Shown piece by piece: positions 37,380-59,024 of a stretch of 64,000 nucleotides of DNA (position 1 is the stretch's first letter; every line of letters starts with the position of its first letter). Origin of the DNA: Stenotrophomonas lactitubi (GTDB taxonomy: Bacteria > Pseudomonadota > Gammaproteobacteria > Xanthomonadales > Xanthomonadaceae). The position numbers and the translations under genes are program-made. The notes beneath the pieces are model-generated. The model was not told where the DNA came from. It was given only the letters and a program-made list of their open reading frames with translations, and did no database searches. The stretch is from positions 62,001 through 126,000 of the forward strand of contig NZ_PHQX01000002.1 of the NCBI RefSeq assembly GCF_002803515.1, read 5' to 3'.

Positions 37380-38018
37380 TCAGCTGGCCAGCACCGCGGC
37401 CTCGCGCGCCATGCGCTCGACACTGTCCCAGTCGCGGGTCTGCATCAGCGCGGCGGTGGTCAGCCAGGAGCCGCCCACGCACAGCACGTTGGGCAGGTGC
37501 AGGAACTGGCTGGCGGTCTGCGCGCTGATGCCGCCGGTCGGGCAGAAGCGCACATCAGCGAACGGGCCGTGCCACGCCGACAGCATCGCGGCCCCCCCGG
37601 CCTGCACGGCGGGGAAGAACTTGAAGGTATCCAGGCCATGCTCCAGGCCGACGATCAGCTCCGAACCGGTGGCCACACCCGGCAGGTAGGGCAGATCGGC
37701 ATCGCGTGCGGCGGCGTACAGCCGTGGCGTCGCCCCGGGCGATACCGCGAAGCGGCCGCCGGCTTCCTTCACGGCCTGCATCTGCGCGGCATCGAGCACG
37801 GTGCCGGCACCGATCACCGCATCCGGCACCGCTTCGACCATGGCCTTGATGGCCTCCAGCGCACGCGGCGTGCGCAGGGTCACCTCGATCACCGGCAGGC
37901 CACCACGGAACAGCGCATGCGCGACCTGCACCGCATCGTCGATGTCATCGGGGGTGAACACCGGAATCACCGGTGCCAGTTTCAGTACCGCACGAACGCG
38001 TGGATCAGCGCCGGACAT
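37380..38018 (-). CDS. eda: 2-dehydro-3-deoxy-phosphogluconate (KDPG) aldolase
   Basis: The enzyme splits KDPG to pyruvate and glyceraldehyde 3-phosphate, the last step of uronate catabolism and of the Entner-Doudoroff route. The 212-residue TIM barrel shows the catalytic Glu in LPVIEVTLRTP and the Schiff-base Lys in GLDTFKFFPA near residue 132. CPTGGI is the phosphate site. The start overlaps the end of kdgK by 14 bases, so the two are translationally coupled. Confidence 0.95.
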   Translation of the reverse strand: MSGADPRVRAVLKLAPVIPVFTPDDIDDAVQVAHALFRGGLPVIEVTLRTPRALEAIKAMVEAVPDAVIGAGTVLDAAQMQAVKEAGGRFAVSPGATPRLYAAARDADLPYLPGVATGSELIVGLEHGLDTFKFFPAVQAGGAAMLSAWHGPFADVRFCPTGGISAQTASQFLHLPNVLCVGGSWLTTAALMQTRDWDSVERMAREAAVLAS

Positions 38019-39024
38019 CGAATCGCTCCTCGCCCATCAGGGCCAACACATCAGCTTCGCTGACGGGATTGAAATCGCCGGGAATGGAGTGCTTCAGGCC
38101 CCCGGCGGCCAGGCCGAAGCGCACGGTGGCGTCGGCATCGAAGGCGGACAGGATGCCATGCAGGATGCCTGCCGCGAAGGCATCACCGCCGCCGATGCGA
38201 TCGACGATGCCCTGCAGCTGGCGCACCGGTGCCTGCGCACGGGTGCCATCGCGGCCCAGCAGCAGCGCGCCCAGCGCATGGTGGTCCACGCTCAGCGTCT
38301 GCCGCTGGGTGCAGGCCAGCCACTGCAGCTGCGGGAATGCGTCGAATGCCGCGGCGGCTGCCGCTTCCACCCGCGCGACCACGTCGGCCTGTTCGAAGCG
38401 CTGGCCGAGGATGACTTCGATATCGCGGTAATCGGCAAAGACGATGTCGGCCTGCGCGAACAGTTCGTGCAGGATCGCCTGCGCATCGCCGCCCCAACGT
38501 TGCCACAGCTTCGGCCGGAAGTTGCCATCGAAGGACACACGCACGCCCAGCGCACGGGCGGCGCGCGCTGCAGCCAGCGTGGCCTGGGCCACGTCCGGGC
38601 CCAGCGCCGGGCTGACCCCGGACAGGTGGAGCCACTGCGCGCCCTGCAGCAGCGCCGGCCAGTCGTAGTCGGCGGCAGTGCTGTTGGCGAATGCGGAATC
38701 GGCACGGTCGTAGACTACTTCACTGGCCCGCTGCACCGCGCCGGTGGTCAGGAAATACAGGCCCATGCGGCCCTCGGCATCTTCGCGCACGCCGCGCGTA
38801 TCGACGCCATGCCGGCGCAGTTCGGCCAGCGCATGCGCGCCGAGCGCGTTGCCGGCGACGGTGCTGACCATGGCCACGTCATGTCCAAAGCGGGACAGCG
38901 AGACAGCCACGTTCGCCTCGGCGCCGCCGACGTGCACCTGCAACTGCGGCGACTGCAGCAGCAGCTCGCGACCGGGCGCACCCAGGCGCAGCAGCAATTC
39001 CCCGAAACACACGATACGACCCAT
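38005..39024 (-). CDS. kdgK: 2-keto-3-deoxygluconate kinase
   Basis: This PfkB-family kinase phosphorylates 2-keto-3-deoxygluconate to KDPG. From the ATG at 39024 (GGAG upstream) it has 339 residues. It shows the PfkB signature GGAEANVAVSLSRFG near residue 36 and the catalytic Asp in RIGGGDAFAAGILHG near residue 285. An ATG 12 codons upstream is possible but lacks support. The gene diverges from a TonB-dependent receptor, and two operator-like CGGTGTCAT sites lie in the gap. With eda, kduI and kduD it completes the uronate route. Confidence 0.94.
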   Translation of the reverse strand: MGRIVCFGELLLRLGAPGRELLLQSPQLQVHVGGAEANVAVSLSRFGHDVAMVSTVAGNALGAHALAELRRHGVDTRGVREDAEGRMGLYFLTTGAVQRASEVVYDRADSAFANSTAADYDWPALLQGAQWLHLSGVSPALGPDVAQATLAAARAARALGVRVSFDGNFRPKLWQRWGGDAQAILHELFAQADIVFADYRDIEVILGQRFEQADVVARVEAAAAAAFDAFPQLQWLACTQRQTLSVDHHALGALLLGRDGTRAQAPVRQLQGIVDRIGGGDAFAAGILHGILSAFDADATVRFGLAAGGLKHSIPGDFNPVSEADVLALMGEERFDVRR

Positions 39025-39106
39025 TTCTGCTCCTTCACGCGTGCCGCCAGCATGTGACACTGGGCGGCGTGGTTGTGGACCACGCGTGGGGCGTGGAATT
39101 GGCTAG

Positions 39107-39115
39107 CGGTGTCAT
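39107..39115. promoter_or_regulatory. Operator-like site A of the uronate island
   Basis: CGGTGTCAT (ATGACACCG on the minus strand) lies 83 bases upstream of kdgK. It is one of at least five copies near uronate-island promoters and a likely LacI-family half operator. Confidence 0.55.
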
Positions 39116-39253
39116 TTCAATCCCGCCCGGCCTTGCCCTAAGCCTACCAAACTGTTGGAAGCATTGTCCTGCAAGCGTCTTGGAGACATTTCAGATCTGT
39201 TGCGGTGCAAGATGCCGGATCGGGAACGTGCTGTTAACGTCCGGCCTGACCAG

Positions 39254-39262
39254 CGGTGTCAT
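39254..39262. promoter_or_regulatory. Operator-like site B of the uronate island
   Basis: CGGTGTCAT lies 48 bases before the receptor ATG, with TGAC eight bases to its left. The 11-mer AGCGGTGTCAT is identical to site A. Confidence 0.6.
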
Positions 39263-39309: not shown

Positions 39310-42072
39310 ATGCATTCTCGGAACCATGAAAAAAAGACACCGGTTACCTTGCTCGCGTTGGCCGTAGCGCTGGCCCTGGCAGGCAACGCCAGCGCGCAGC
39401 AGCAGAGCGCCAACCCGAACGCCACCGACCTGGATACGGTCACCGTCACCGGCTACCGCGCCAGCGTGGAGAAGGCGCTGGACATCAAGCGTGGCGAAGC
39501 CGGCGTGGTCGATGCCATCGTTGCCGAAGACATCGGCAAGTTCCCCGACCTGAACCTGGCCGAGTCGCTGCAGCGCATCCCCGGCGTGGTCATCACCCGT
39601 GAGGCCGGCGAAGGCCGCAACATCTCGGTGCGTGGCCTCGGCCCGGAATTCACCCGCGTGCGCATCAACGGCATGGAAGCGCTGACCACCGTCGGCGCCG
39701 GTGACCAGAGCGGCGGCACCAACCGCGGCCGTGGCTTCGACTTCAACGTGTTCGCCTCGGACCTGTTCTCGCAGCTGCTGGTGCGCAAGACCGCCTCGGC
39801 CGACGTCGAGGAGGGCTCGCTGGGCGCCACTGTCGATCTGCGCACCGCGCGTCCGTTCGACTACGACGGCTTCACCTTCGCCGCCAGTGGCCAGGCCAGC
39901 TACAACGCGATGGCCGAGAAGGCCGACCCGCGCATCGCCGCGCTGGTCTCCAACACCTTCGCCGATGGCACCTTCGGCGCCTTGCTGTCGGTGGCCTATT
40001 CCGAGCGCCAGGCGCTGGAGGAGGGTTCCAACACCGGCCGCTGGGCCAACGGCCCGAGCAACGGCAACTTCGCCGCGTCCTCGCCGTTCGCCGCCGCGCG
40101 TGGCGCCAACGTGTTCCATCCGCGCTTCCCGCGCTACGTGCAGATGGAACACGAACAGAAGCGGCTGGGCGTAACCGGTTCGCTGCAGTGGAAGCCGAAC
40201 GACGCCACCGAGATCTCGCTGGATGCGCTGTACTCGAAGATCGATGCGACGCGCGACGAGCACTACATCGAAGCGATCTCCTTCAGCCGCGGCGCCAACG
40301 CGAGCGCACGCCTGTCGGGCAAGCCGACCACCATCGTCAAGAATGGCGAGATACGCGACAACGCACTGCTCTACGGCGAATTCGACAACGTCGACATCCG
40401 CACCGAGAACCGCCACGACGAGTGGAGCACCGAGTTCAAGCAGATCGCGCTGAACGGCCAGCACCGCTTCGGCGATGACTTCACCCTGTCCGGCAAGCTC
40501 GGCATCTCGCGTTCCAAGCACGAGAACCCGGTGCAGACCACCGTCATCATGGACAAGTACGACGTCAAGGGTTACAGCTACGACTACCGTGGCAACAGCC
40601 GTGCGCCGGTGCTCAACTACGGCATCGACCCGACCAATCCCAACGGCTGGGAACTGGCCGAGATCCGCCTGCGTCCGCAGTACGTGGACAACGACTTCGA
40701 CACCGGCCAGATCGATTTCAACTGGAATATCAGCCCGGGCTTCCGCCTGAAGGGCGGCGTGCTGGCCAAGGACTACACGTTCAAGACCGTCGAACTGCGC
40801 CGCGCCAGCGAACTGGCCGTGCCCAACTTCGCCGACGGCAGCAAGATCGTGCCGGTGGACCTGACCGAGCAGGCCGGACTGAAGGGCATCAGCGGCAGTC
40901 CGTCGAACTGGGTCGTGCCGAACCTGGACGCGATCGCCGAACAGCTGGACATCTACAGCAACAGCGGCACCTTCGCCGTCGCCCCGCGTGCCAACAACGT
41001 GCGCAGCGTCGAAGAGAAGGACCGTGGCGCCTACCTGATGGGCGAGTTCTCCACCGAACTGGGCTCGTTGCCGTTGTCGGGCAATTTCGGCGTGCGCTAC
41101 GTGCGTACCAAGCAGTCGTCCACCGGGCAGTCGACGCTGGCCAACGGCACCGTCGAAACCACGGTCAGCCGCACCTACGACGACACCCTGCCCTCGTTCA
41201 ACCTGGTGGCTGAAGTCACTCCGGACTTCCTGATCCGCCTGGGTGCGGCCAAGGTGATGAGCCGTCCGGGGCTGGGCAGCCTGACGCCGGGCGCGACGGT
41301 GGCGGTGGCCGGTGGTGCACGCACCATCTCCAGTGGCAACCCGGTACTGGATCCGATCCGTGCGACCAATGTCGACCTCGGCTTCGAGTGGTACTTCGCC
41401 GAAGGTGCGATGGCCGGCATCGGCCTGTTCTACAAGGACATCGAGAGCTTCGTGCAGACCACCCGCGAAGTGCGCCCGTACAGCGACAGCGGCCTGCCGG
41501 CGTCGCTGCTGGTCGGCACCGGCGCCTCGGCCACCGATGACTTCACCTACAGCAAGCCGGTCAACACCCCGGGCGGCGAACTGCACGGCGTGGAAGCCAA
41601 CTACACCCAGCCCTTCACCTTCCTGCCCGGCAAGTGGGCGAACCTGGGCGTGCAGTTGAACTACACCTGGGTGGAATCGAAGATCCAGTACATCAACGCG
41701 GCCGGGCAGCCGGTGATGAAGACCGACCTGACCGGCCTGTCGAAGTCGTCGTGGAACGCCACGCTGTTCTATGAAGGCGAGAAGTTCGCCGGGCGCATCT
41801 CGGCCACCAACCGCGATGACTACCTGACCCAGGCACCGGGCCAGGAGACCGGCTTCAACCTCGATGGCTACCACGGCATGACCGGTACCACGGTGTTCGA
41901 TGCGTCCATCCGCTACAAGATCAGCGACAAGCTGGAACTGAGCCTGGAAGGCATCAACCTGACCAACGAAGCCTCCGACGAGTGGGTGTACTCGCCGCTG
42001 ACCGGTCGCCTGCCGCTGCAGTACACCGAGACCGGCCGCCAGTACCTGCTGGGGCTGCGCTACAAGTTCTGA
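39310..42072 (+). CDS. TonB-dependent receptor of the uronate island
   Basis: The 920-residue receptor starts at the ATG at 39310 after GGGGAAAGG. A signal peptide (LLALAVALALAGNASA, cleavage near residue 28) is followed by a plug domain with LDTVTVTGYRASVEKALDIKR. This and the IPGVVITREAGEGRNISVRGLG stretch are typical of carbohydrate-type receptors of xanthomonads. The barrel ends in the aromatic YKF. It should take up oligosaccharides released outside the cell. It diverges from kdgK-eda across a gap with two operator sites. A further near-copy of the operator (GACACCGGTTACC, 39336-39348) lies in its first codons. Confidence 0.92.
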   Translation: MHSRNHEKKTPVTLLALAVALALAGNASAQQQSANPNATDLDTVTVTGYRASVEKALDIKRGEAGVVDAIVAEDIGKFPDLNLAESLQRIPGVVITREAGEGRNISVRGLGPEFTRVRINGMEALTTVGAGDQSGGTNRGRGFDFNVFASDLFSQLLVRKTASADVEEGSLGATVDLRTARPFDYDGFTFAASGQASYNAMAEKADPRIAALVSNTFADGTFGALLSVAYSERQALEEGSNTGRWANGPSNGNFAASSPFAAARGANVFHPRFPRYVQMEHEQKRLGVTGSLQWKPNDATEISLDALYSKIDATRDEHYIEAISFSRGANASARLSGKPTTIVKNGEIRDNALLYGEFDNVDIRTENRHDEWSTEFKQIALNGQHRFGDDFTLSGKLGISRSKHENPVQTTVIMDKYDVKGYSYDYRGNSRAPVLNYGIDPTNPNGWELAEIRLRPQYVDNDFDTGQIDFNWNISPGFRLKGGVLAKDYTFKTVELRRASELAVPNFADGSKIVPVDLTEQAGLKGISGSPSNWVVPNLDAIAEQLDIYSNSGTFAVAPRANNVRSVEEKDRGAYLMGEFSTELGSLPLSGNFGVRYVRTKQSSTGQSTLANGTVETTVSRTYDDTLPSFNLVAEVTPDFLIRLGAAKVMSRPGLGSLTPGATVAVAGGARTISSGNPVLDPIRATNVDLGFEWYFAEGAMAGIGLFYKDIESFVQTTREVRPYSDSGLPASLLVGTGASATDDFTYSKPVNTPGGELHGVEANYTQPFTFLPGKWANLGVQLNYTWVESKIQYINAAGQPVMKTDLTGLSKSSWNATLFYEGEKFAGRISATNRDDYLTQAPGQETGFNLDGYHGMTGTTVFDASIRYKISDKLELSLEGINLTNEASDEWVYSPLTGRLPLQYTETGRQYLLGLRYKF

Positions 42073-42079
42073 GCAACGC

Positions 42080-42208: not shown

Positions 42209-45200
42209 ATGCCGCACCGCTCGACCCTGTCCCGCTGCCTGTTGCTGGCGGTGGCCCTGGCTGCCGGCCCCGCGATGGCCGCCACCGATGCACCCACGCT
42301 GCTGTTCCATGTCGATGCCGGCAAAGGCCTTGAGGCCGTGGTGGCGCAGGGTGAGGCGGTGCCGAACTTCCGCGACAAGGTCGACATCGTCGACGACGGA
42401 GCGCGCGGCAAGGCAATCCAATGGCAGGACGACGGTGTGCTGGCCTGGGATGCGCCCGGCAACATCCTTGCCCAGCGCGGCACCGTCGCCTTCGACTGGC
42501 GCGCGCGCTATGCGGTGGGCGAAGCACCGTTCGTGATCTTCCGCGTCGGCTATGCCGACCACAGCAGCTGGGACATGGCCTGGCTGCGCATCGACTGGAA
42601 CGGGCACGGCTTCGATGCGTTCGTCACCGATGCCAACCTCGCCCGCACGCGCGTGTCGTTCCGCATGGACACGCCGCCACGCGCGGACCAATGGCTGCAC
42701 CTGGCCTTCGCCTGGGATGAAGACCAGGGCGTGCGCCTGTTCGTCGATGGTCGCGAAGTGGCGCGTGTGCAGGCCAGCGGTGACTACGATGCAGCGCTGG
42801 ACCAGCTCGGCCTGGCCGGACGGGTGATGGCGCCCTACCAGGTGCAGAGCCGCTACAACTTCCTGCGCGGCAGTGATTTCCAGCACATCCGCGTGTACGA
42901 CCGCATGCTTGATGCTGCGGCCGTCAGTGCGCTCGCGCGTGGCAAGGCCGTCACCAGCGCCGTTGCCGGTGCCAGCGATGATCGCGCCTGGCGCCATCGC
43001 TTCGGCTGGGACGGCGCACCGCCACCGGCATTGAGCGCCGCCGGCACGCGCATCCGCAAGATCGAGTTTGCCGATGCCCGTGATCTGAAGGCATGGATGT
43101 GGAAGGCCACCGACGGCATCGCCGAGACCACGTGGCCCGGCGTCTACAACCGCTCGCGCCTGCCCGGCCGCAGCGACTACTTCCAGTTGCCGGACTGGAA
43201 CACCTATGTGGAAAGCGGCCAGCACCTGGACCTCACCGTTCCGGCCGGCGAGACCGTCAACCGCGTGGAGATCCGTGGTGCGGCGTTCGGCACGCTGGCC
43301 CATGGCCGCGATGCGGCGCACGCCACGCAGGTGCTGGCAACGCGTCCCCAAGGCGTGGTGCGCAGCGTCGACGACATTCCGGCACAGACCGGGGGCGTGC
43401 TGCGTTTCAGCAACGTTGAACAGGAAACGCCGATCCAGGAGATCTGGGCGTACGACGTGAGCGAAGGCGCCGAGCCCGATGGCACGGTCAAACAGACCTA
43501 TGTCATCGACAGCCAGGCGCTGCCCGATTACACCAACCTGGACACCCTGCGCCGTTACATCGACGGCCGCTATCCGCTGGCCGAACGCAGCACGGTGATG
43601 GCGCTGCCGAAGGGCGCAGGCTCGCGGCGCCGCAGCGCCGACACGCTGCCGGCCGAGCCGGAACCGATCGTGCACGTGTTGATTCCCTCGGGCGTGGGCG
43701 ATGCGCCGGCCAACCAGCCGTTGATCCGCAGCTGGGCCTACAGCTGGGAAAACATGCATGACGGGCTGGACGGCGTGGCCATCGACATCCCCGCGCTGGA
43801 CCTGCCGGCCACGCACGACGGCCTGATCCCGCTGAACATCCGCATCAAGGATCCGATCTGGCCGGCGCGCGACATGATCGATGCTTCGGTCTCGGTGCAA
43901 CCCGGGCAGAAGCGCACGCTGTGGCTGGACCTGCGCGACCGCATCCTTACGCCCGACAGCCTGTGGCTGAGCATCGCCTCGGCTGCGCCCGGCTTCGACG
44001 CCAAGGCACTCGACGGTGCGCAGGTGCGGCTGGTGTTCAAGCCACGCGCCGAGGCGATCAAGGAGCACGTGGCCGACCGCTTCAACCAGGTGCGCGACAA
44101 CTGGGGCTTCCTGGTGGAGGAACACACCACCTCCAAGCGCCAGCGCCTGTATGCGCGCGTATACGCGGACCTGAGCGACCTGCTGCGGGTCGACCCGGAC
44201 CACGAACTGGGCCGGTTGTACTGGAACTACATCAGCTACAACAGCCAGGGCCGACCACCGTACACCGCGCCGGAGGTGCCAAACGGTGTACCGGCGTGGG
44301 CATTCCATCAGGTGCAGGATCTGGCCCAGGTGCGGCAGTTCGTCGACTGGTGGATCGATCAGCGGCAGGTGGCCTACGGCGATTTCGGTGGCGGCATCTC
44401 CGACGATTCCGACCTGACCCAGCAATGGCCGGGGCTGGCCCTGATGGGCGTGCAGCCGGACCGCCTGAATGCCTCGCTGACCGCATTGTCAGACGCGGTG
44501 TACCGCAATGGCATGTTCAGCAATGGCCTCAGCACCATCGAGACCGACGAGCTGCATGCCTACGAGGAAGGCATCAACACCAACAGCGCGATGCTCTACC
44601 TCAACTGGGGCGATCCGCTGACCCTGGAACGACTGATGGAAACGGTGAAGGCGTTCGACGAGCGCATCATCCTGCGCAACCCGCAGGGCCATCTGCTGTT
44701 CTCCAGCAACTGGTTCGGTGGCAACAAGGTCTACCGCGAACCGAACTGGCAGTGGCAGAAGCCGTACTCGTTCCCGGTGCTGCATCCGGCGTTCCTGCTG
44801 GGCCAGTACAACGCCGACGCGACCGGGCGCCGGCTGGTGATCGGCCTGGCCGATGGCTATCTGGCCCACGCCGGTACCGACGACAAGGGCCGCTTCACCC
44901 TGCCCAACGAGATCAACTGGGCGACCGGCGAGACCCGCGGCGGCGAACTCAACAACGGCTCCGGCAGCGGCGACACCATGCATACGTTCTGGGCGGCATG
45001 GCGCTGGACCGGCGACGCGAAGTACCTGCAGGCGCTGGACTACCGCGTGCAGCGCGGCGGGCCCGGCGCGCTGGCCAACCTCGGCGAGAACTACGTGGAG
45101 GCGCTCGGCCGGCAGCAGGACTGGTACCCGCTGCTGACCGCCGAGGCCGACGCCGGGAAGACCGGCTTCGCCAGCCTGATGGCCTGGCAGGCCAGCGGGG

Positions 45201-46012
45201 AACGGAAGTACATCGATGCACTGCATGCCGATGGCCTGCAAGCCAAGGCACAACGCGCGTACATGAACACCGAAGGCCATTGGTGGTCCGACCGGGTGGA
45301 AGCGCCGAGCGAGTTCCTGCAGCGTGCACGGCTGGGTGGCATCGCCCTGAAGCGCAACCAGAGTTGGCCCGGGCACACCGTCAGCTGGCGCTTCGATCGC
45401 GAGGGTGCCGCCGAACAGGTGGCGCTGCTGGTGCATGCGCCCTCGCGCGAGCACTTCACGGTCACCAGCCACAACCTCGGCGCGCGCGTGATCACCGCTG
45501 ACATGACCGGTTGGAACGTGGCCAGCGGGTCATGGCGCGTGCGTAGTGGCGTGGATGCCGACGGCGATGGCCGCATCGACGGCACGCCGCGCGAACGCGT
45601 GGTGCAGTTGGAAACGAGTGCGTCGGTTCCGATGCAGTTCCAGCCTGGGCGCACCGAGGTATTCGAGTTCGAGCGTGTGTCTGCGGGGACGCCGGTGGAA
45701 ACACGCCCGGACCTGGGTGTGGGCCGTGGTGATGTACGGGTGGACGGGCGCCAGGTACACGTGACGGTGCACGGCCTTGGGCATGTGGCCAGCGGTGTGG
45801 GTGTGGCGGTGCTGGAAGATGCGCGGGGCCGCGAGATCGCACGCACCGAAGTGCCGGCGATGGCTGCACCGACTGACCTGTTGCCGAAGACGACGGTGGT
45901 GTCGTTGCCGTTGCCGGCCGGTGACCGAAGTAACCTGCGCGTGCGCGTTGCGCTGGCCGACGGCGGTGAGGAAGTGACGCGCCTCAACAATGTGGTGGAC
46001 GTGCCGCGATGA
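42209..46012 (+). CDS. Large secreted LamG-containing protein, candidate polysaccharide-degrading enzyme
   Basis: The 1267-residue protein has a signal peptide (LLLAVALAAGPAMA, cleavage near residue 25) and a concanavalin/LamG-like domain at about residues 30-260 (DQGVRLFVDGREVA). A middle beta-rich region follows. The helical region at about residues 620-1050 looks like an (alpha/alpha) toroid, with DFGGGISDDSDLTQQWPG near residue 730, TDELHAYEEGINTNSAMLYL near residue 785 and AGTDDKGRFTLPNEINW near residue 890. The C-terminus is beta-rich. I recognise no named catalytic family. Polar, aromatic and acidic residues concentrate in the toroid, as in polysaccharide lyases and some hydrolases. 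It follows the receptor gene and ends before convergent esterase-linked genes. Confidence 0.6.
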   Translation: MPHRSTLSRCLLLAVALAAGPAMAATDAPTLLFHVDAGKGLEAVVAQGEAVPNFRDKVDIVDDGARGKAIQWQDDGVLAWDAPGNILAQRGTVAFDWRARYAVGEAPFVIFRVGYADHSSWDMAWLRIDWNGHGFDAFVTDANLARTRVSFRMDTPPRADQWLHLAFAWDEDQGVRLFVDGREVARVQASGDYDAALDQLGLAGRVMAPYQVQSRYNFLRGSDFQHIRVYDRMLDAAAVSALARGKAVTSAVAGASDDRAWRHRFGWDGAPPPALSAAGTRIRKIEFADARDLKAWMWKATDGIAETTWPGVYNRSRLPGRSDYFQLPDWNTYVESGQHLDLTVPAGETVNRVEIRGAAFGTLAHGRDAAHATQVLATRPQGVVRSVDDIPAQTGGVLRFSNVEQETPIQEIWAYDVSEGAEPDGTVKQTYVIDSQALPDYTNLDTLRRYIDGRYPLAERSTVMALPKGAGSRRRSADTLPAEPEPIVHVLIPSGVGDAPANQPLIRSWAYSWENMHDGLDGVAIDIPALDLPATHDGLIPLNIRIKDPIWPARDMIDASVSVQPGQKRTLWLDLRDRILTPDSLWLSIASAAPGFDAKALDGAQVRLVFKPRAEAIKEHVADRFNQVRDNWGFLVEEHTTSKRQRLYARVYADLSDLLRVDPDHELGRLYWNYISYNSQGRPPYTAPEVPNGVPAWAFHQVQDLAQVRQFVDWWIDQRQVAYGDFGGGISDDSDLTQQWPGLALMGVQPDRLNASLTALSDAVYRNGMFSNGLSTIETDELHAYEEGINTNSAMLYLNWGDPLTLERLMETVKAFDERIILRNPQGHLLFSSNWFGGNKVYREPNWQWQKPYSFPVLHPAFLLGQYNADATGRRLVIGLADGYLAHAGTDDKGRFTLPNEINWATGETRGGELNNGSGSGDTMHTFWAAWRWTGDAKYLQALDYRVQRGGPGALANLGENYVEALGRQQDWYPLLTAEADAGKTGFASLMAWQASGERKYIDALHADGLQAKAQRAYMNTEGHWWSDRVEAPSEFLQRARLGGIALKRNQSWPGHTVSWRFDREGAAEQVALLVHAPSREHFTVTSHNLGARVITADMTGWNVASGSWRVRSGVDADGDGRIDGTPRERVVQLETSASVPMQFQPGRTEVFEFERVSAGTPVETRPDLGVGRGDVRVDGRQVHVTVHGLGHVASGVGVAVLEDARGREIARTEVPAMAAPTDLLPKTTVVSLPLPAGDRSNLRVRVALADGGEEVTRLNNVVDVPR

Positions 46013-46734: not shown

Positions 46735-46743
46735 CGGTGTCAT
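46735..46743. promoter_or_regulatory. Operator-like site C of the uronate island
   Basis: CGGTGTCAT lies between the esterase stop and the cupin ATG (46691). The flanking palindrome is weaker than at the other sites. Confidence 0.5.
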
Positions 46744-49501: not shown

Positions 49502-50329
49502 TTGAGCAACGAACACGGCATACATGGGCAGACGCCGCCGCCGGACGATGCGGCCGCGATCGCCCACGCCTTCACCACCGCGCGCCGCGCGGGCCAGGCC
49601 CTGCCCGGCTTCCCGGGCCTTGTCCCGCCTGACCTGGTGGCTGCCTACCAGGTGCAGGATCTGGCCATCGCCAGCTGGGACGACCATGTGGTCGGCTGGA
49701 AGGTCGGCTACATCGCCGCCGAGCGCCGTGATGCATCCGGCGACGACCGTCTGCTGGGCCCGGTTTTCTCGCGTCAGCTGAAAAATGCCACCGGTGGAAC
49801 AGTGGACATTCCGGTGTTCGTCGGCGGCTTCGGCGCGGTCGAGGCGGAGTACGTGCTGGAGCTGTTGGAGGACGCTCCGGCCGCACAGCTGCACTGGTCA
49901 CCCGAGCAGGCTGAAGCGCTGCCGGCGCGGCTGTACATCGGTGTGGAAGTGGCCAGCAGCCCGCTGGCGACGATCAACCAACTCGGCCCGCGCGTGGTGG
50001 TGTCCGACTTCGGCAACAACAACGGCCTGGTGCTGGGGCCGGAGATCGCCGACTGGACCGCCCGCGACGAGACCGAGCTGCGCGCCGAAACCCTGATCGA
50101 GGGCGAGGTGGTCGGCACCGGCGGAGCGACGCGCCTGCCCGGTGGTCTGCGCGCGGCGTACGCGTTCGCGCTGTCCCGTTCGGCATTGCGCGGCCGGCCG
50201 TTGCAGCGCGGCGACCTGATCGCAACCGGCAACGCCACCGGCATCCATGACATCACCGCAGGACAGACGGCGCTGGTGCGGTTTGCCGGCTTCGGCGAGA
50301 TTGCCTGCAGGGCCGTGCCGGCCGGGTAA
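49502..50329 (+). CDS. Fumarylacetoacetase-fold hydratase (2-keto-4-pentenoate hydratase-like)
   Basis: The 275-residue cytosolic enzyme starts at a TTG preceded by GAGGGAGA. The C-terminal two-thirds resemble MhpD-like members of the fumarylacetoacetase superfamily: EAEYVLELLE supplies acidic metal ligands near residue 120, then RLYIGVEVASS and GDLIATGNATGIHDI follow. These enzymes act on 2-keto acids with a divalent metal. In a uronate island it could act on a 2-keto-3-deoxy sugar acid, giving an alternative to the kdgK route, but the substrate is unproven. It is followed by dctP in a probable operon. Confidence 0.75.
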   Translation: MSNEHGIHGQTPPPDDAAAIAHAFTTARRAGQALPGFPGLVPPDLVAAYQVQDLAIASWDDHVVGWKVGYIAAERRDASGDDRLLGPVFSRQLKNATGGTVDIPVFVGGFGAVEAEYVLELLEDAPAAQLHWSPEQAEALPARLYIGVEVASSPLATINQLGPRVVVSDFGNNNGLVLGPEIADWTARDETELRAETLIEGEVVGTGGATRLPGGLRAAYAFALSRSALRGRPLQRGDLIATGNATGIHDITAGQTALVRFAGFGEIACRAVPAG

Positions 50330-50368
50330 CCGCCGCACGATCCGGTGAACACGCGCGGGAGGGCGCAG

Positions 50369-51373
50369 ATGATCACACGACGACACTTCCTGGCCGGTGG
50401 CGCTGCTGCGCTGGCCACCCCGATGCTCGCGGCCTGTGGCCGTGGGCCGGCCGAGGCCATCGACGGTGGCCAGCTGCTGACCGCCACTGATGTGCACGTG
50501 GCCGACTACCCCACCGTGACCGCGGTGAAGTGGATCGGCGAAACGCTGCAGCGCGAAAGCAACGGCCGCCTGCGCCTGCGGCAATACCATTCCGGCCAGC
50601 TTGGTCGCGAGTCGGAAGCGATCGACATGGCCCGTTTCGGTGCCATCGACATCACCCGCGTGTATGCCGGTGCGCTGAACAACGCATTCCCGCTGACCCA
50701 GGCACTGTGCCTGCCGTATGTGTTCGAGTCGGTGGCGCACCAGCGCGCCGCACTCGATGGCGGCATCGCCGAGGCGGTGCTGCGGGGTTTCGAGAGTCGC
50801 GACCTGGTCGGCCTGGCGATCTACGATTCCGGCGCGCGCTGCTTCTACAACACCAAGCATCCCATCGTGCAGCCCAATGATCTGCATGGGTTGAAACTGC
50901 GCGTGGCGTCCTCGGACATCTTCATCCAGCTGATGCGCCTGCTCGGCGCCAACCCGACGCCGATGTCGCTGGGCGATACGTTCTCCGGCATGGAGACGCA
51001 CATGATCGATGGCGCCGAGAACAACATGCGCAGCTTCCATTCCAGCCGACACTTCGAGGCGGCGCATTACTGGTCGCAGAGCGATCACTCGTATGCGCCG
51101 GACGTGCTGCTGATGTCGCGCGCCAGCTTCGAGCGCCTGCAGCCGGCTGACCGCCAGCTGTTGCTGGAGACCGCACGCGCCTCGGTGAAGGTGATGCGCG
51201 AGCAATGGGATGCCTCCGAAGATGCCGCGCGCCGCGCGGTGCTGGCCTCTGGCGTGAAAGCCAACGAGGTGGACCTTCCCGCGTTCCGCGCCGCCGCCCA
51301 GCCGCTGCTGCAGCAGTACCTGCAGCAACCCGAGCTGGCCGCGCTGGTCGCCCGCATCCGCGCTGCCGCCTGA
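50369..51373 (+). CDS. dctP: TRAP transporter substrate-binding protein
   Basis: The 334-residue periplasmic binding protein captures organic acids, typically with a conserved Arg that pairs with the carboxylate. The N-terminus (ITRRHFLAGGAAALATPMLAAC) combines a Tat motif with a lipobox Cys, so it is probably a Tat-exported lipoprotein. The body is a DctP fold (YHSGQLGRESEAIDMARFGAIDITRVYAG; GLKLRVASSDIFIQLMRLLGANP). Uronates are common ligands of this family. GGGAGGG precedes the ATG. dctQ and dctM follow in the same operon, with gaps of 10 and 3 bases. Confidence 0.92.
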   Translation: MITRRHFLAGGAAALATPMLAACGRGPAEAIDGGQLLTATDVHVADYPTVTAVKWIGETLQRESNGRLRLRQYHSGQLGRESEAIDMARFGAIDITRVYAGALNNAFPLTQALCLPYVFESVAHQRAALDGGIAEAVLRGFESRDLVGLAIYDSGARCFYNTKHPIVQPNDLHGLKLRVASSDIFIQLMRLLGANPTPMSLGDTFSGMETHMIDGAENNMRSFHSSRHFEAAHYWSQSDHSYAPDVLLMSRASFERLQPADRQLLLETARASVKVMREQWDASEDAARRAVLASGVKANEVDLPAFRAAAQPLLQQYLQQPELAALVARIRAAA

Positions 51374-51383: not shown

Positions 51384-51926
51384 ATGACCGAGACGACGAT
51401 TGCCGCCGCCGGCCCCGGCCAGCGCCTGCTGGACCGCATCGCCGACATCGCCATCTACATCGCCGTGGCTGCGCTGCTGGGCCTGGTGGTGGTGCAGGGC
51501 TGGCAGGTGTTCGCCCGCTATGTGATCAACGATTCGCCCAGCTGGACCGAGCCGGTGACGCTGCTGCTGCTGGCCACGGCGATGAGCCTGGGCGCGGCCT
51601 GCGGCGTGCACACCAACCGCCACTTCGGCTTCTTCCTGCTGCACGCCTACATGGGGTCCGGCCTGCGCCGGGCGGTGGATGTGTTCACCCAACTGGTGGT
51701 GGCCGTGCTGGGTGGCTTCATCGCGTTCTGGTCGGCCGACCTGCTGCTCGATGGCATGGACATCAAGACTGCCGGCGCCAACCTGCCGCAGAGCATCAAC
51801 TACCTGCCGCTGGCCGTGGGCGGTGCGCTGATGCTGCTGTTCGCACTGAACCGTGCGTGGAAGGCGCTGCATGCCACGGCAGCTGATGCCGACGCCGACG
51901 CCGTCGACGCTGAAGGAGATCGTTGA
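51384..51926 (+). CDS. dctQ: TRAP transporter small permease
   Basis: The 180-residue inner-membrane subunit has four hydrophobic helices (about residues 22-45, 55-75, 95-115 and 135-155) and the DctQ motif FARYVINDSPSWTEPV near residue 42. It pairs with the large permease in the sodium-driven TRAP complex. It lies 10 bases after dctP and 3 bases before dctM. Confidence 0.9.
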   Translation: MTETTIAAAGPGQRLLDRIADIAIYIAVAALLGLVVVQGWQVFARYVINDSPSWTEPVTLLLLATAMSLGAACGVHTNRHFGFFLLHAYMGSGLRRAVDVFTQLVVAVLGGFIAFWSADLLLDGMDIKTAGANLPQSINYLPLAVGGALMLLFALNRAWKALHATAADADADAVDAEGDR

Positions 51927-51929: not shown

Positions 51930-53213
51930 ATGGGCATCACCATCCTGTTCGCTGTTTTTGCCGCACTGCTGCTGCTGGGCGTGCCGGTCGCCTACGCGTT
52001 GGCTGCTGCTGCGCTGGCCACCCTGCTCTACCTGGACATCCCCAGCATCGTGCTGGTCCAGCAGATCTCCGCCGGCACCGGTTCGGCCTCGCTGATCGCC
52101 ATTCCACTGTTCATCTTCGCTGGCGAGATCATGATGCGCGGCGGCATCTCCGAACGCCTGATCGCCCTGGCGTCATCGCTGGTGGGGCGCATGCGCGGCG
52201 GCCTGGGCCAGGTCTCGATCCTGTCCTCGCTGTTCTTCGGCGGTGTGTCCGGCTCGGCCATCGCCGATGTTTCGGCCGTGGGTGGCACGATGATTCCGCA
52301 GATGGTCAAGCGCGGCTACGACCGCGACTTCGCGGTGAACGTCAGCATCACCGCCGCGCTGGTGGCGCTGCTGGTGCCGCCATCGCACAACCTGATCCTG
52401 TTCTCGGCCGCTGCCGGCGGTGGCCTGTCGATCGCCGACCTGTTCGCCGCAGGCATCGTGCCGGCGCTGCTGATGACGCTGGCGTTGATGATCACCGGCT
52501 ACGTGGTCGCGCGTCGCCGTGGCTATGGCGTGGAAGTGTTCCCGGGCTGGCGCGCGGTACTGCTGCGCATCGTCTCCGCCCTGCCCGGCCTGGGCCTGGT
52601 GGCGCTGATCTTCGTGGGTATCCGCGCCGGCATCTTCACCGCGGTGGAGAGCGCGGCCATCGCCGTGGTCTACGCCCTGCTGGTCACCACCGTGCTGTAC
52701 CGGCAACTGCGCTGGCGCGAGTTCTTCGACACCGTCATCCATGCCGCACGCAGCACCGGCGTGATCCTGTTCGTGATCGCCACCGCGGCGGTGTTCGGCT
52801 GGCTGCTGGCCTACCTGCAGGTGCCCGCGGCGGCGGTGGACTTCCTGCAGTCGTTCGCGCACAGCCAGTTCATGGTGCTGCTGATGATCGTGGTGATGCT
52901 GTTGCTGCTGGGCACCTTCATGGACCTGGCACCGATGATCCTGATCTGCACGCCGATCTTCCTGCCGGTGGCCAAGGCCTATGGCATCGATCCGATCCAC
53001 TTCGGCCTGGTGCTGGTGCTGACCGGTGGCCTCGGCCTGGTCACCCCGCCGGTGGGCTCGGTGCTGTTCATCGGCACCGCCATCGGCAAGATCAGCGTCG
53101 GCCAGAGCATGCGCACGATCTGGCCGTTCTGGTTCGCCGCGCTGGGCGTGCTGCTGATCGTCACCTTCTTCCCATCGCTGTCGCTGTGGCTGCCCGCCGC
53201 GCTGCGCGCCTGA
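51930..53213 (+). CDS. dctM: TRAP transporter large permease
   Basis: The 427-residue permease has about a dozen membrane helices and carries the solute and sodium sites. Visible landmarks are LFIFAGEIMMRGGI, FFGGVSGSAIADVSAVGG near residue 92 and LGLVTPPVGSVLFIGTAIGK near residue 370, typical of DctM/SiaM. AAGGAGA precedes the ATG. The gene ends 17 bases before the GH43 gene, so transport and saccharide cleavage are co-expressed. Confidence 0.94.
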   Translation: MGITILFAVFAALLLLGVPVAYALAAAALATLLYLDIPSIVLVQQISAGTGSASLIAIPLFIFAGEIMMRGGISERLIALASSLVGRMRGGLGQVSILSSLFFGGVSGSAIADVSAVGGTMIPQMVKRGYDRDFAVNVSITAALVALLVPPSHNLILFSAAAGGGLSIADLFAAGIVPALLMTLALMITGYVVARRRGYGVEVFPGWRAVLLRIVSALPGLGLVALIFVGIRAGIFTAVESAAIAVVYALLVTTVLYRQLRWREFFDTVIHAARSTGVILFVIATAAVFGWLLAYLQVPAAAVDFLQSFAHSQFMVLLMIVVMLLLLGTFMDLAPMILICTPIFLPVAKAYGIDPIHFGLVLVLTGGLGLVTPPVGSVLFIGTAIGKISVGQSMRTIWPFWFAALGVLLIVTFFPSLSLWLPAALRA

Positions 53214-53230: not shown

Positions 53231-54820
53231 ATGACACAGACCCTGCACCGCGCTGCTGCAACTGCCCTGCTCGGCCTGCTGCTGGCTGCGCTGCCCGCAC
53301 TGGCTGCCGATCCCGCGCCCGCGCAGTGGAAGCGCGGCATCGAGCAGCAGCGCCAGGCTGACCTTGGCAATGGCACCTTCCTGAATCCGGTGCTGGCCGG
53401 CGACAGGCCCGATCCGTCGGTGCTGAAGGACGGCGAGGACTACTACCTCACCCTGTCCTCGTTCGATGCCTACCCCGGCCTGCCGATCTGGCACTCGCGC
53501 GACCTGGTGAACTGGCAGCCGCTCGGTCATGCGATCACGCAGAACGTGGGCGCGATCTGGGCGCCGGACATCGTCAAGCACCAGGGCCGCTACTTCATCT
53601 ACTTCCCGGCGCGCACTGGTGAGCGCCGCAGCAACTTCGTGGTCTGGGCCGATGACATCACGGGCCCTTGGAGCGCGCCGATCGACATCGGCCTGGGCGG
53701 CTACATCGACCCCGGCCACGCGGTCGGTGAAGACGGCAAGCGTTACCTGTTCCTCAGCGGTGGCGACTACGTGCAGCTGGCCGATGATGGCCTGAGCGTG
53801 GTGGGTACGCCGAAACACGTGTACGACGGCTGGCGTTACCCGGAAAGCTGGGACGTGGAGGCCTATGCGCAGGAAGGGCCGAAGATCCACTTCCGCGATG
53901 GCTGGTACTACATGACCACTGCGGTGGGTGGCACCGCCGGCCCGCCGACCGGGCACATGGTGATCACCGCGCGCTCGCGCTCGATCCACGGCCCGTGGGT
54001 GAACGCGCCGAACAACCCGATCATGCGCACGCAGTCGGCTGCCGAACCGTGGTGGTCGCGCGGCCACGCCACGGTGATCGAAGGCACCGACGGCCGCTGG
54101 TGGATGATGTACCACGGCTACGAGAACGGCTTCTGGACGCTGGGTCGACAAGCCCTGCTGGAGCCGATCGAGTGGACCGCCGATGGCTGGTTCGTGGCCA
54201 AGGGCGGTGATCTTGGGCAGCCGCTGCGCAAGCCATCGGGCAGCGCGCTGACGCCGCACGGGATGGCCCTGTCCGATGATTTCACCGGCCGCACGCTCGG
54301 CCCGCAGTGGGCGTTCTTCAACCCGGCGGTGGATGAATACCGGCGCCTGCGCTTCAGCGGCGACGGCCTGGTGCTGCAGGGCAAGGGCAGCACGCCGCGC
54401 GATGCCTCGCCACTGACCACCATCGCCGGCGACCCGGCGTACCAGTTCGAGGTGGAGATGGAGATCGCCCCCGGCGCGGTCGGCGGTGCCCTGCTGTTCT
54501 ACAGCGACCGCCTGTACGTGGGCGTGGGCAGCAATGGCGAGCAGTTCGTCATGCACCGCTACGGCGAGGAGCGCCCCACCCGGCTGGCGGCCAGTGCCAA
54601 GGGCGGCCGGCTCTGGCTGCGGGTGACCAACAACCGCCACATCGTCACCATCCACTCCAGCGCCGATGGCCAGCGCTGGCAGAAGTATCCGGTTCAGATG
54701 GAAGTGTCCGGTTACCATCACAATGTGGCCGGCAAGTTCCTGGCACTGAAACCGGCGCTGTATGCGGCCGGCAACGGTGCGGTAACCTTCCGCAGCTTCC
54801 GCTATCGCGCGCTGGACTGA
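53231..54820 (+). CDS. Glycoside hydrolase family 43 enzyme
   Basis: The 529-residue secreted protein (signal HRAAATALLGLLLAALPALA, cleavage near residue 25) is a five-bladed propeller glycosidase. Residues 48-370 contain NPVLAGDRPDPSVLKDGEDYY with the catalytic-base Asp and the propeller repeat IWAPDIVKHQGRYFIYF. The second acid is probably in ESWDVEAYAQEGPKIH near residue 215. A C-terminal beta-sandwich (residues 375-529) is the kind found in beta-xylosidases and arabinofuranosidases. It should cleave neutral side chains, such as arabinose, xylose or galactose. GGAGG at 53219 supports this start over an ATG at 53213 that overlaps dctM. Confidence 0.85.
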   Translation: MTQTLHRAAATALLGLLLAALPALAADPAPAQWKRGIEQQRQADLGNGTFLNPVLAGDRPDPSVLKDGEDYYLTLSSFDAYPGLPIWHSRDLVNWQPLGHAITQNVGAIWAPDIVKHQGRYFIYFPARTGERRSNFVVWADDITGPWSAPIDIGLGGYIDPGHAVGEDGKRYLFLSGGDYVQLADDGLSVVGTPKHVYDGWRYPESWDVEAYAQEGPKIHFRDGWYYMTTAVGGTAGPPTGHMVITARSRSIHGPWVNAPNNPIMRTQSAAEPWWSRGHATVIEGTDGRWWMMYHGYENGFWTLGRQALLEPIEWTADGWFVAKGGDLGQPLRKPSGSALTPHGMALSDDFTGRTLGPQWAFFNPAVDEYRRLRFSGDGLVLQGKGSTPRDASPLTTIAGDPAYQFEVEMEIAPGAVGGALLFYSDRLYVGVGSNGEQFVMHRYGEERPTRLAASAKGGRLWLRVTNNRHIVTIHSSADGQRWQKYPVQMEVSGYHHNVAGKFLALKPALYAAGNGAVTFRSFRYRALD

Positions 54821-54858: not shown

Positions 54859-55917
54859 ATGTCAGTGCGCAACAAGAACGATGCCGCTACGCCGGCATTG
54901 GCAAAGGGCAAGGCAGCCACGATCAATGACATCGCGCGACTGTCGGGTGTATCCAAGAAAACGGTTTCAAGGATCATCAACAACTCGCCGCTGGTGCGCA
55001 AGGACACGCGCGACAAGGTGGAAGCGTTGATGCGCGAGGTCGGTTACACCCCCGACCCGCTGGCCCGTGGCCTGGCCTTCCGCCGCTCGTTCCTGATCGG
55101 CATGGTCTACGACAATCCCACCGCGCAGTACATCGTGGACATGCAGTACGGCGCGCTGGATGCGCTGCGTGGCTCCAGCTTCGAACTGGTGGTGCACCCC
55201 TGCGACAGCCGCAGCCCGGGTTACATCGACGGCGTGCGCCGCTTCGCCCAGCAGCAGAAGCTGCATGGGGTGATCCTGGTGCCGCGTGCGTCCGAAGACC
55301 AGGCGCTGGCGGACATGCTGGACGAGATCGGCTGCCGCTTCACCCGCGTGGCCGCGCTGCCACTGGATGAAACCTCGCAGATGGTGGTCACCCACGACCG
55401 CGATGGTGCTGCCGAAGCAGCCGATTACCTGCTTTCGCTGGGCCACCGCGATATCGCCCTGGTAACCGGCCCGAGTGCCTACCGCTCGGCGCACGAACGC
55501 ACCGCCGGCTTCATCGAGGCGCTGTCGCAGCGTGGCATCGAGCTGCCGAAGGATCGCATCATCGAGGCCGGCTACACCTTCGAATCCGGTGTGGCCGCCG
55601 CCGAGAAACTGCTGCTGGGCAAGCGTCGGCCGACCGCCATCTTCACCGGCAACGATGAAATGGCGGCCGGTGTCTACAAGGTCGCGCTGCGCGCCGGCAT
55701 CAACATTCCGCGCCAGCTGTCCATCGTCGGCTACGACGACAGCCCGCTGGCCTCGCGCCTGTGGCCGTCGCTGACCTCGGTGCGCCGGCATACCCGCGAT
55801 ACCGGCCGCACCGCCGCGGCGATGCTGATCCAGCCCGATGGCCAGCCTGCGCTGCAGATCGCCAGCGTGCGTCCGCACCTGATCGTGCGCGATTCCTGCC
55901 AACCGCCAGAGGATTGA
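54859..55917 (+). CDS. LacI-family transcriptional regulator of the uronate island
   Basis: The 352-residue protein has an N-terminal LacI helix-turn-helix (ATINDIARLSGVSKKTVSRI near residue 22) and the hinge LARGLAFRRSFLIGM. The periplasmic-binding-type sensor runs from about residue 75 to the end (FDGVRRFAQQQKLHGVILVPRA-type, VTGPSAYRSAHERTAGFIEAL). It probably represses the island until a breakdown product, for instance 2-keto-3-deoxygluconate, binds. The ATGACACCG-type operators listed here are the likely targets. It lies 38 bases after GH43 in the same direction. Confidence 0.88.
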   Translation: MSVRNKNDAATPALAKGKAATINDIARLSGVSKKTVSRIINNSPLVRKDTRDKVEALMREVGYTPDPLARGLAFRRSFLIGMVYDNPTAQYIVDMQYGALDALRGSSFELVVHPCDSRSPGYIDGVRRFAQQQKLHGVILVPRASEDQALADMLDEIGCRFTRVAALPLDETSQMVVTHDRDGAAEAADYLLSLGHRDIALVTGPSAYRSAHERTAGFIEALSQRGIELPKDRIIEAGYTFESGVAAAEKLLLGKRRPTAIFTGNDEMAAGVYKVALRAGINIPRQLSIVGYDDSPLASRLWPSLTSVRRHTRDTGRTAAAMLIQPDGQPALQIASVRPHLIVRDSCQPPED

Positions 55918-56062: not shown

Positions 56063-56080
56063 ATGACACCGGTTTCCTGT
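56063..56080. promoter_or_regulatory. Operator-like site E before kduI
   Basis: ATGACACCGGTTTCCTGT at 56063-56080 shares 13 of its first 14 bases with site D. It lies 86 bases before the kduI ATG, where a repressor could block kduI-kduD. Confidence 0.65.
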
Positions 56081-56100: not shown

Positions 56101-56997
<897 letters not shown>

Positions 56998-57077: not shown

Positions 57078-57833
57078 ATGACCAATCCCTTCAGCCTGGA
57101 AGGAAAAGTCGCTCTGGTAACCGGTGGCAATACCGGCCTGGGCCAGGGTATCGCGGTGGCACTGGCTGCCGCCGGCGCCAATGTCGCGGTGGCCGGCATC
57201 GCCCCGCCCACTGAAACCATCGAGAAGATCACCGCGCTGGGCCGCCGCTGCCTGGCCATCGAAGCCAACCTGATCAGCATCGAGCCGGTCGAGCGCGTGG
57301 TGCGCGAAACCATCGAGGGCCTCGGCAGGCTGGACATCCTGGTCAACAACGCCGGCCTGATCCGTCGCGCCGATGCAGTGGACTTCAGCGAGCAGGACTG
57401 GGACGACGTGATGAACGTCAACATCAAGTCCGCCTTCTTCATCTCGCAGGCCGCCGGCCGCCATTTCATCGCCCAGGGCAGCGGCAAGATCATCAACATC
57501 GCCTCGATGCTGTCGTTCCAGGGCGGCGTCCGCGTGCCGTCGTACACCGCCAGCAAGAGCGGCATCGCCGGCATCACCCGCTTGCTGGCCAACGAGTGGG
57601 CTGGCAAGGGCGTGAACATCAACGCGATCGCGCCGGGCTACATGGCTACTGACAACACCGCCGCGCTGCGCGCCGATGCAGACCGCAACAAGGCGATTCT
57701 GGAGCGCATTCCGGCCGGTCGCTGGGGCAACCCGGAAGATCTGGCCGGTGCGGCGGTGTTCCTGGCCTCGTCGGCGTCGGACTACGTCAACGGCGCAGTG
57801 CTGCCGGTCGATGGTGGCTGGTTGGCGCGCTGA
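57078..57833 (+). CDS. kduD: 2-dehydro-3-deoxy-D-gluconate 5-dehydrogenase
   Basis: This short-chain dehydrogenase reduces 2,5-diketo-3-deoxygluconate to 2-keto-3-deoxygluconate with NADH. The 251-residue protein shows the NAD site TGGNTGLGQG near residue 14, NNAGLIRR near residue 90 and the catalytic Ser-Tyr-Lys triad: S of IASMLSF and Y-K in YTASK near residues 158-162. The start ATG at 57078 is preceded by AAGGAACGC. It follows kduI and precedes a SMAG dimer. Confidence 0.95.
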   Translation: MTNPFSLEGKVALVTGGNTGLGQGIAVALAAAGANVAVAGIAPPTETIEKITALGRRCLAIEANLISIEPVERVVRETIEGLGRLDILVNNAGLIRRADAVDFSEQDWDDVMNVNIKSAFFISQAAGRHFIAQGSGKIINIASMLSFQGGVRVPSYTASKSGIAGITRLLANEWAGKGVNINAIAPGYMATDNTAALRADADRNKAILERIPAGRWGNPEDLAGAAVFLASSASDYVNGAVLPVDGGWLAR

Positions 57834-57845
57834 CGCGCACGGATC

Positions 57846-57915
57846 TGTAGAGCCGAGCCCATGCTCGGCTGTCGCGCTCTGATCAAAAAACAGCCGAGCG
57901 TGGCTCGGCTCTACA
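57846..57915. repeat. SMAG inverted dimer (GAGCCGAGCC type)
   Basis: TGTAGAGCCGAGCCCATGCT (from 57846) faces AGCCGAGCGTGGCTCGGCTC (ending 57915) in inverted orientation. It ends 11 bases before the acetylesterase ATG, so its right edge contributes the GGGGG ribosome-binding region (57916-57920). Confidence 0.88.
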
Positions 57916-57926
57916 GGGGGCTGGCG

Positions 57927-59024
57927 ATGCGAAGGCTGTTGTTGCTGCTGTTGCTGTCGTGCAGCGCCGTGCATGCGGCGCCGGTGCGGCTGTTCATTGC
58001 CGGTGATTCCACCGCTGCCGAATACGGCCCCGATCGCGCGCCGCAGGCCGGCTGGGGACAGATGCTGCAGAGCTATCTGGACCCGGCGCGTTTCGAAGTG
58101 CACAACCACGCCAAGGGCGGGCGCAGCACGCGCAGCTTCATCGACGAAGGGCGCCTGGATGCGATTGCCGCCGAACTACGTCGTGGCGATGTGTTGCTGA
58201 TCCAGTTCGGCCACAACGACGCGAAGTTTGAAGATCCCACGCGCTACACCGACCCGGACAGCGACTATCCACAGCTGCTGATGCGTTACGTGCAGGTGGC
58301 GCGTGACAAGGGCGCCACACCGGTGCTGGTCACGCCGGTGGCGCGGCTGCTGTACGACTTCGGTTCGCTGCTGGATACGCACGCACGCTACACGCTGGCG
58401 ATGCAGCAGCTGGCCGCACGCGAACACGTCGCGCTGATCGACCTCAACGACCGCAGCACACGATGGATCCGCGCGCTGGGCGAGCAGGGCGCACGCCCGT
58501 ACTTCCTGTTCGTGCCGGAGCAGAACAAGGCCGATGGCACGCACTTCAGCGCGGCCGGTGCCACTGCGGTGGCGTGCCTGGTGCTGCGCGAGGCGGTGCA
58601 GGTGTTACCGACGCTGCAACCGGCGCTGGTACGCGACATCGACTGCGATGTGATGGGTGCAGGGCAGGGCGGCGATCCTGCGCGACGCTCGCAGGTGGTG
58701 CACGAAGACACGCTGGCGCGCGCGCAAGCGGGCCCGCACGGCGGCGCCGGGCCGACCACGGCGTATCCGTTCTTCGCCGATGCGCAGGGCCTGCCATTCG
58801 TGCTGCGCAAGCGTGTGCTGCACAAGGGCGCGGGCATCGGCCTGCACCCGCAGCACAAGGACGAGATCTATTACATCGTGAGCGGGCGGGGCAGTTACGT
58901 GCTGGATGGGAAGCAGCATGATGTGCAAGCCGGCCATGCGCTGCTGACCCGCACGGGCAGCACGCATGCGCTGCAACAGGTGGGCGAAGAGGATCTGGTG
59001 GTGCTGCTGGCGTATCCGCGGTAG
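57927..59024 (+). CDS. Rhamnogalacturonan acetylesterase-like SGNH hydrolase fused to a cupin
   Basis: The 365-residue secreted protein has a signal peptide (LLLLLLLSCSAVHA, cleavage near residue 17). Residues 18-245 form the SGNH esterase: nucleophile Ser in FIAGDSTAAEYG, GGRSTRSFI, IQFGHNDAK and the catalytic DGTHFSAAG (Asp and His). Residues about 275-365 form a cupin (GLHPQHKDEIYYIVSGRGSY, two His residues and an acidic ligand; then GSTHALQQVG). The esterase part matches rhamnogalacturonan acetylesterases; the cupin is an added domain. A fused cupin outside the cytoplasm is unusual. It is separated from kduD by a SMAG dimer. Confidence 0.85.
   Translation: MRRLLLLLLLSCSAVHAAPVRLFIAGDSTAAEYGPDRAPQAGWGQMLQSYLDPARFEVHNHAKGGRSTRSFIDEGRLDAIAAELRRGDVLLIQFGHNDAKFEDPTRYTDPDSDYPQLLMRYVQVARDKGATPVLVTPVARLLYDFGSLLDTHARYTLAMQQLAAREHVALIDLNDRSTRWIRALGEQGARPYFLFVPEQNKADGTHFSAAGATAVACLVLREAVQVLPTLQPALVRDIDCDVMGAGQGGDPARRSQVVHEDTLARAQAGPHGGAGPTTAYPFFADAQGLPFVLRKRVLHKGAGIGLHPQHKDEIYYIVSGRGSYVLDGKQHDVQAGHALLTRTGSTHALQQVGEEDLVVLLAYPR

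Follow-up and report, generated by a model that had tools for sequence, protein, structure and literature searches.

A probable pectin utilisation locus in Stenotrophomonas lactitubi encodes a LamG protein that may release unsaturated galacturonate

We analysed a 64,000-nt stretch of Stenotrophomonas lactitubi DNA (G000:C2:62001-126000, hereafter the window), in which positions 37,380 to 59,024 form an island of uronate-catabolism genes that includes a large secreted protein, here called the LamG protein. Gene start codons were set by eye, and domains were called by Pfam and NCBIfam cut-offs in the island proteins scanned. The scans brought together a typical utilisation-locus set: a TonB-dependent receptor (TBDR), an inner-membrane transporter, a regulator and degradative enzymes. 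A preliminary description of this DNA had listed a TonB receptor, a TRAP transporter, a GH43, two esterases and a rhamnogalacturonan-acetylesterase-like fusion, all of which are present in the positions given; the island's largest enzyme-like gene, that of the LamG protein (42209-46012, + strand), was absent from its list. The features of the island are as follows:

37380..38018, - strand: eda, KDPG aldolase (PF01081 and TIGR01182 above cut-off)
38005..39024, - strand: kdgK-type PfkB sugar kinase (PF00294)
39105..39115, - strand: ATGACACCGST, kdgK/TBDR divergent region (motif search)
39252..39262, - strand: ATGACACCGST, kdgK/TBDR divergent region (motif search)
39310..42072, + strand: TBDR (TIGR01782)
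42209..46012, + strand: secreted 1267-aa LamG protein (Pfam LamG above cut-off; signal peptide by eye)
46104..46691, - strand: CDO_I (cysteine dioxygenase type I) family cupin protein (PF05995)
46743..48413, - strand: carboxylesterase, COesterase family (PF00135, 274.7 bits)
48362..49396, - strand: secreted alpha/beta-hydrolase, probably a BD-FAE-like esterase (translation; PF20434 in a relative's protein at the matching place)
49425..49435, + strand: ATGACACCGST, upstream of the FAH-TRAP-GH43 row (motif search)
49505..50329, + strand: FAH/hydratase-like protein (PF01557 below cut-off; weak NahK match)
50345..51373, + strand: TRAP binding protein DctP, predicted to be probably uronate-binding (PF03480; best solved relative 4n8y)
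51384..51926, + strand: TRAP small permease DctQ (PF04290)
51930..53213, + strand: TRAP large permease DctM (PF06808)
53231..54820, + strand: secreted GH43, arabinofuranosidase/xylosidase type (PF04616; solved relatives 6ms3, 5jow)
54859..55917, + strand: LacI-family regulator that presumably recognises the motif (PF00356, PF13377)
56063..56073, + strand: ATGACACCGST, upstream of kduI (motif search)
56149..56997, + strand: kduI (NF002091 above cut-off)
57078..57833, + strand: kduD (TIGR01832 above cut-off)
57927..59024, + strand: secreted fusion of a GDSL (rhamnogalacturonan-acetylesterase-like) domain and a cupin (PF13472, PF07883; 2o14, 1deo)

The lower pathway that the preliminary description had assigned to kduI, kduD, kdgK and eda was confirmed. 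KduI (409.9 bits against an NCBIfam cut-off of 250), KduD (409.6 against 338.85) and Eda (248.8 against 156.05) all exceeded their cut-offs, while KdgK reached no NCBIfam equivalog cut-off (best 302.6 bits against 700, for a fusion model), cleared the PfkB Pfam cut-off only, and owes its name to gene context. The DctP protein is closest to the solved structures 4n8y, 4ovr, 4mhf/4mij and 4x8r. The accessible part of one report names galacturonate as the ligand of 4n8y and glucuronate as that of 4x8r (PMC11668362), and that of another describes the 4mhf protein as binding both galacturonate and glucuronate (PMC7660916). An importer of monomers fits with the release of monomers in the periplasm. 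The TRAP row is headed by the FAH/hydratase-like gene, whose product matches the 4-oxalocrotonate decarboxylase NahK at E 3e-4 and has relatives of 36-41% at Novosphingobium and Sphingomonas loci (L003, L081, L082).

No enzyme known to feed this pathway was found. Polysaccharide-lyase (PL), GH28 and GH88/105 models gave zero matches among the island proteins scanned (the second esterase, 48362-49396, lies outside that scan), which bears out the earlier statement that the island has no known lyase family or unsaturated glucuronyl hydrolase. Whole-genome family searches for GH88/105, PL10, PL1, PL22 and GH28 found none either, with PL2, PL3, PL4, PL9, PL11 and PL26 outside their scope; the PL22 model PF14583 matched neither the scanned island proteins nor the genome, and PL1, PL10, PL22 and GH28 Pfam domains are missing from the LamG protein as from the genome. 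PL22, a beta-propeller, releases monomers for KduI, and because neither PL22 nor GH105 was found, another monomer-yielding enzyme is needed. The preliminary description had called the initial depolymerase missing or new: the five genome-wide searches strengthen the view that the uronate-releasing enzyme belongs to no recognised family, but an exo-acting releaser of monomers appears likelier than an endo-depolymerase. A beta-helix search of the genome gave four places. Three passed the cut-off, namely an autotransporter, a PL6-type protein and, in L086, a 333-aa protein without assigned activity; the fourth stood at E 0.17.

LamG is the sole Pfam domain above cut-off in the 1267-aa protein, a Baseplate_J match having fallen under it, and NCBIfam gave zero matches at E up to 0.01. 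An AlphaFold2 model of residues 270-1287 (residue numbers here and below count from an open reading frame (ORF) start at 42149 and run 20 higher than from 42209) has a pLDDT of 93.3 and confidently predicts, after LamG, a CBM32-like domain, a beta-sandwich, an (alpha/alpha)6 toroid and a C-terminal beta domain. Models at pLDDT 93.3 and 94.1 show the toroid of a carbohydrate enzyme, of the (alpha/alpha)6 form found in GH88/GH105. With the 1018-residue model as query, most Foldseek alignments carried no meaning, complement C3b ranking first, and for that reason the toroid was folded alone; the toroid-only search reached a best E of 2.5e-4, with listed query TM-scores of 0.26-0.42. PL27 occurs in the VIA list for the 1018-residue model but is absent from the 50-row list obtained with the toroid alone, which leaves PL27 possible. 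Comparisons by hhalign with GH105, PL10, PL17 and epimerase returned nothing, the PL17 and epimerase sides being single sequences. A literature search that included LamG-like jellyroll with pectin found, among the papers listed, no description of the LamG protein as an enzyme, a recent CAZy assignment being possible. The gap between the TBDR and LamG genes (42073-42208) contains a strong inverted repeat without a T-run, recognised by eye and possibly an expression-tuning stem.

Gene order was compared across 83 loci, namely 80 retained from 346 relatives (one genome per species) and three plasmid records. The LamG gene is single-copy in its own genome and its closest relatives are from Stenotrophomonas; the ORF is at least 1242 aa long in 81 of the 83 loci. 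A TBDR cluster accompanies it in 75, a kdgK-type kinase cluster in 67 and a carboxylesterase cluster in 32. Directly upstream of the LamG gene, at -7 to 326 bp, 26 loci carry PL10, and 22 of these same loci also carry a pectin methylesterase (PME) upstream. Both enzymes occur together in Xanthomonas (17/29), Luteimonas (3/6) and other Lysobacteraceae (1/2); Pseudoxanthomonas has PL10 in four of nine loci and the pair in one, and the alphaproteobacterial (0/9) and Rhodanobacter (0/1) loci have no PL10 directly upstream. Four Stenotrophomonas loci (L014, L015, L016, L070) have a 36-37% PL10 relative about 9 kb downstream. The window itself is without PME or PL10, the pectin-specific enzymes appearing in the loci of relatives. 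Novosphingobium groups a TBDR, an esterase, a sugar kinase, kduD, kduI, LacI, MFS, GH43 and the LamG protein. Three loci or genes call for separate mention: in the Xanthomonas cucurbitae copy (L045, 9779-13909) the called LamG ORF is only 909 aa and PL10 is cut to C-terminal fragments; a record assigned to Bacillus subtilis SK7B5 (L017, 1-16894) carries a Stenotrophomonas-like locus of 78% identity and is probably a contaminated assembly; and relatives of the CDO_I-family cupin occur in 21 loci, which, apart from the suspect L017, all bear the name Stenotrophomonas or the synonym hibiscicola.

Co-occurrence was assessed in 119 genomes of the family, which are related, so that the Fisher tests are not independent trials: the LamG protein is found in 19, and PF04962 (KduI/IolB family) in 18 of these against 22 of the 100 others (p 1.9e-9), four genomes having a second, far stronger PF04962 match, probably IolB. 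PL10 is present in seven of the 19, always adjacent, against six of the 100 (p 8e-4), and GH88/105 in four of all 119, two of them weak and two among the 19 (p 0.12).

The sequence ATGACACCGST has exactly four sites in the window, each within an island promoter region, against 0.05 expected and a maximum of one in 100 shuffles. It recurs in 77 of the 83 loci, with 146 sites where mononucleotide-shuffled loci give 1.2, a number that reflects conservation more than independent proof since most of these loci are orthologous; 51 of the 146 are flagged within ORFs by a simple gene caller that tends to extend its starts too far, and L002, L004, L049, L072, L074 and L082 have no site. Alphaproteobacterial sites are more independent evidence than those of orthologous loci: Caulobacter (L084, site 9837) and Sphingomonas (L080, site 6913) each have a copy of the motif immediately before the LamG gene, and in Novosphingobium (L003, site 11829) it lies between a LacI gene, which leads a kduI-kduD-kinase-esterase row, and a divergent row whose last members are MFS, GH43 and the LamG gene. 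The island LacI protein probably reads this operator-like motif, which offers a way to trace the regulon in other genomes.

The preliminary description had left the substrate open among rhamnogalacturonan, pectin, ulvan and alginate. Relatives whose gene rows include PME and PL10 point to pectin, which is probably the substrate class. Alginate was considered and set aside, since the genome has a separate row at G000:C1 of a TBDR, a PL6-type gene (PF14592), a PL17-type gene (PF07940, PF05426, Alg17C_C), an MFS and an SDR, in which the motif is absent. We take PF14592 to stand for PL6 and the other three models for PL17, and the row is presumably of the kind used for alginate.

Taken together, these data suggest that the region is a pectin (homogalacturonan/oligogalacturonide) locus whose LamG protein frees unsaturated galacturonate, probably as an exo-lyase, and we give this reading as a whole an even chance. 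The TBDR would bring oligogalacturonides into the periplasm, where esterases and GH43 would remove decorations by de-esterification and de-branching. The LamG and CBM32-like modules of the 1267-aa protein may hold the chain, and the toroid would release 4,5-unsaturated galacturonate monomers, most likely by exo-acting beta-elimination, with a candidate centre among D800, H803, Y805, E806, N810, R739 and R1049/R1059/R1061/R1069. The monomer would rearrange to 5-keto-4-deoxyuronate, a known chemistry of unsaturated galacturonate, and would be imported through the TRAP transporter for conversion by KduI, KduD, KdgK and Eda. Of the separate parts, it is likely that the LamG protein is the uronate-releasing enzyme; that it works as an exo-lyase has an even chance or slightly less. 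Among monomer-yielding options, an exo-lyase would be the simplest, a GH88-like hydrolase its main rival and another glycosidase third.

Several observations weigh against this proposal. In the structural list for the toroid alone the top places go to a DsbH-like protein, GH88 and GH76, not to lyases, and the (alpha/alpha)6 toroid fold is common to hydrolases, epimerases and lyases; comparisons by Pfam, PDB profile and hhalign revealed no sequence kinship of the LamG protein to any lyase. In Stenotrophomonas, PL10 is directly upstream in one of 27 loci and PME there in none. Genome G029 has the LamG protein without KduI, and of the 100 genomes that lack the LamG protein 22 do have KduI. Around the LamG copies of Sphingomonas R1, Asticcacaulis and Nitrospirillum, the part annotated or scanned shows no recognisable uronate cluster. 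The motif was picked post hoc from window promoters already inspected, and two looser first patterns gave nine and ten matches, equalled in six and two of 100 shuffles. X. arboricola CFBP 2528 (L061) combines a long LamG ORF with no more than a scrap of PL10, and the accessible part of PMC4686621 reports pectate-lyase activity just for two other, nonpathogenic strains, not for CFBP 2528. On these grounds an endo-lyase activity of the LamG protein is unlikely, whereas an exo-enzyme need not give a halo.

The LamG protein might instead cut another pectin linkage, at a neutral side chain or cap, as a GH76- or GH47-like toroid, with uronate released by a different enzyme. GH76 does stand among its structural matches, but the protein is retained with kdgK and KduI while PME, PL10, TRAP and GH43 vary, and it is the island's one large secreted protein without assigned activity; we consider this role unlikely. 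It is also rather improbable that the protein is an unsaturated galacturonyl hydrolase, GH88/105-like but with a separate ancestry, which trims unsaturated residues from oligogalacturonides that PL10 or neighbouring microbes produce. The shared toroid speaks for such an enzyme; against it, the LamG family shows no profile similarity to GH105, with an hhalign probability of 0.04% where distant GH88 as a positive control reached 98.5%, although one of five column-shuffled GH105 controls (3.0%, E 0.005) outscored real GH105 and these scores carry no meaning. Moreover, because no PL1, PL10 or PL22 of its own was found in the strain, a hydrolase would bring it just one residue per foreign oligomer. 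That the lyase is encoded elsewhere, in the PL6/PL17-type locus, as the 333-aa beta-helix protein in L086 or in one of the families outside the genome-wide searches, with the island serving as lower pathway only, is very improbable, since the PL6/PL17-type locus has its own TBDR, MFS and SDR and the motif is absent both there and in L086.

The island and its candidate enzyme differ from the systems to which they can be compared. The pectin locus XCC0120-XCC0122 of Xanthomonas campestris, a CUT (carbohydrate utilization containing TBDR) locus in which a TBDR stands with PME and pectate lyase, resembles the window in its TBDR, but the window lacks PME and PL10 and has, in addition, TRAP, GH43, esterases and the lower pathway. 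In the accessible parts of the sources, polygalacturonate induces XCC0120 (the TBDR gene next to PME and PL), the locus is found only in Xcc among the strains compared (PMC1790865), and nonpathogenic X. arboricola has homologues of XCC0121 and XCC0122 (PMC4686621). The LamG protein model shares a beta-sandwich and an (alpha/alpha)6 barrel with PL27 (L-rhamnose-alpha-1,4-D-glucuronate lyase, 5no8), yet it has extra LamG, CBM32-like and C-terminal beta domains and a different gene context, and no PL27 chain is among the PDB sequences matched by LamG-family profiles at E up to 10. Unlike GH88/GH105 unsaturated uronyl hydrolases, it is multi-domain, 1267 aa long and without PF07470 or profile similarity, and it would take the same step as oligogalacturonate lyase PL22 without a PF14583 match. 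The locus type is known and the new part is a candidate enzyme outside recognised families, novel in degree rather than in kind. We tentatively suggest, at somewhat less than an even chance, that the LamG-toroid protein founds a separate polysaccharide-lyase family, an exo-acting oligogalacturonate lyase that takes the place of both PL22 and GH105 across many Xanthomonadaceae, among them lineages without adjacent PME/PL10, with relatives in Sphingomonadales and Caulobacterales. If true, a protein named at best LamG domain-containing gains a testable enzymatic role, a missing step of the pectin pathway is filled in Stenotrophomonas and its Xanthomonas relatives, and a candidate toroid-fold enzyme family is exposed.

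Beyond the island, the window holds Ku and LigD end-joining genes upstream (28486-32010), followed at 32622-37327 by a GAF-domain sigma-54 activator adjoining aldehyde dehydrogenase and zinc alcohol dehydrogenase genes. At 59847-61348, a biopterin-dependent aromatic amino acid hydroxylase (PF00351) lies beside an AsnC-type regulator.

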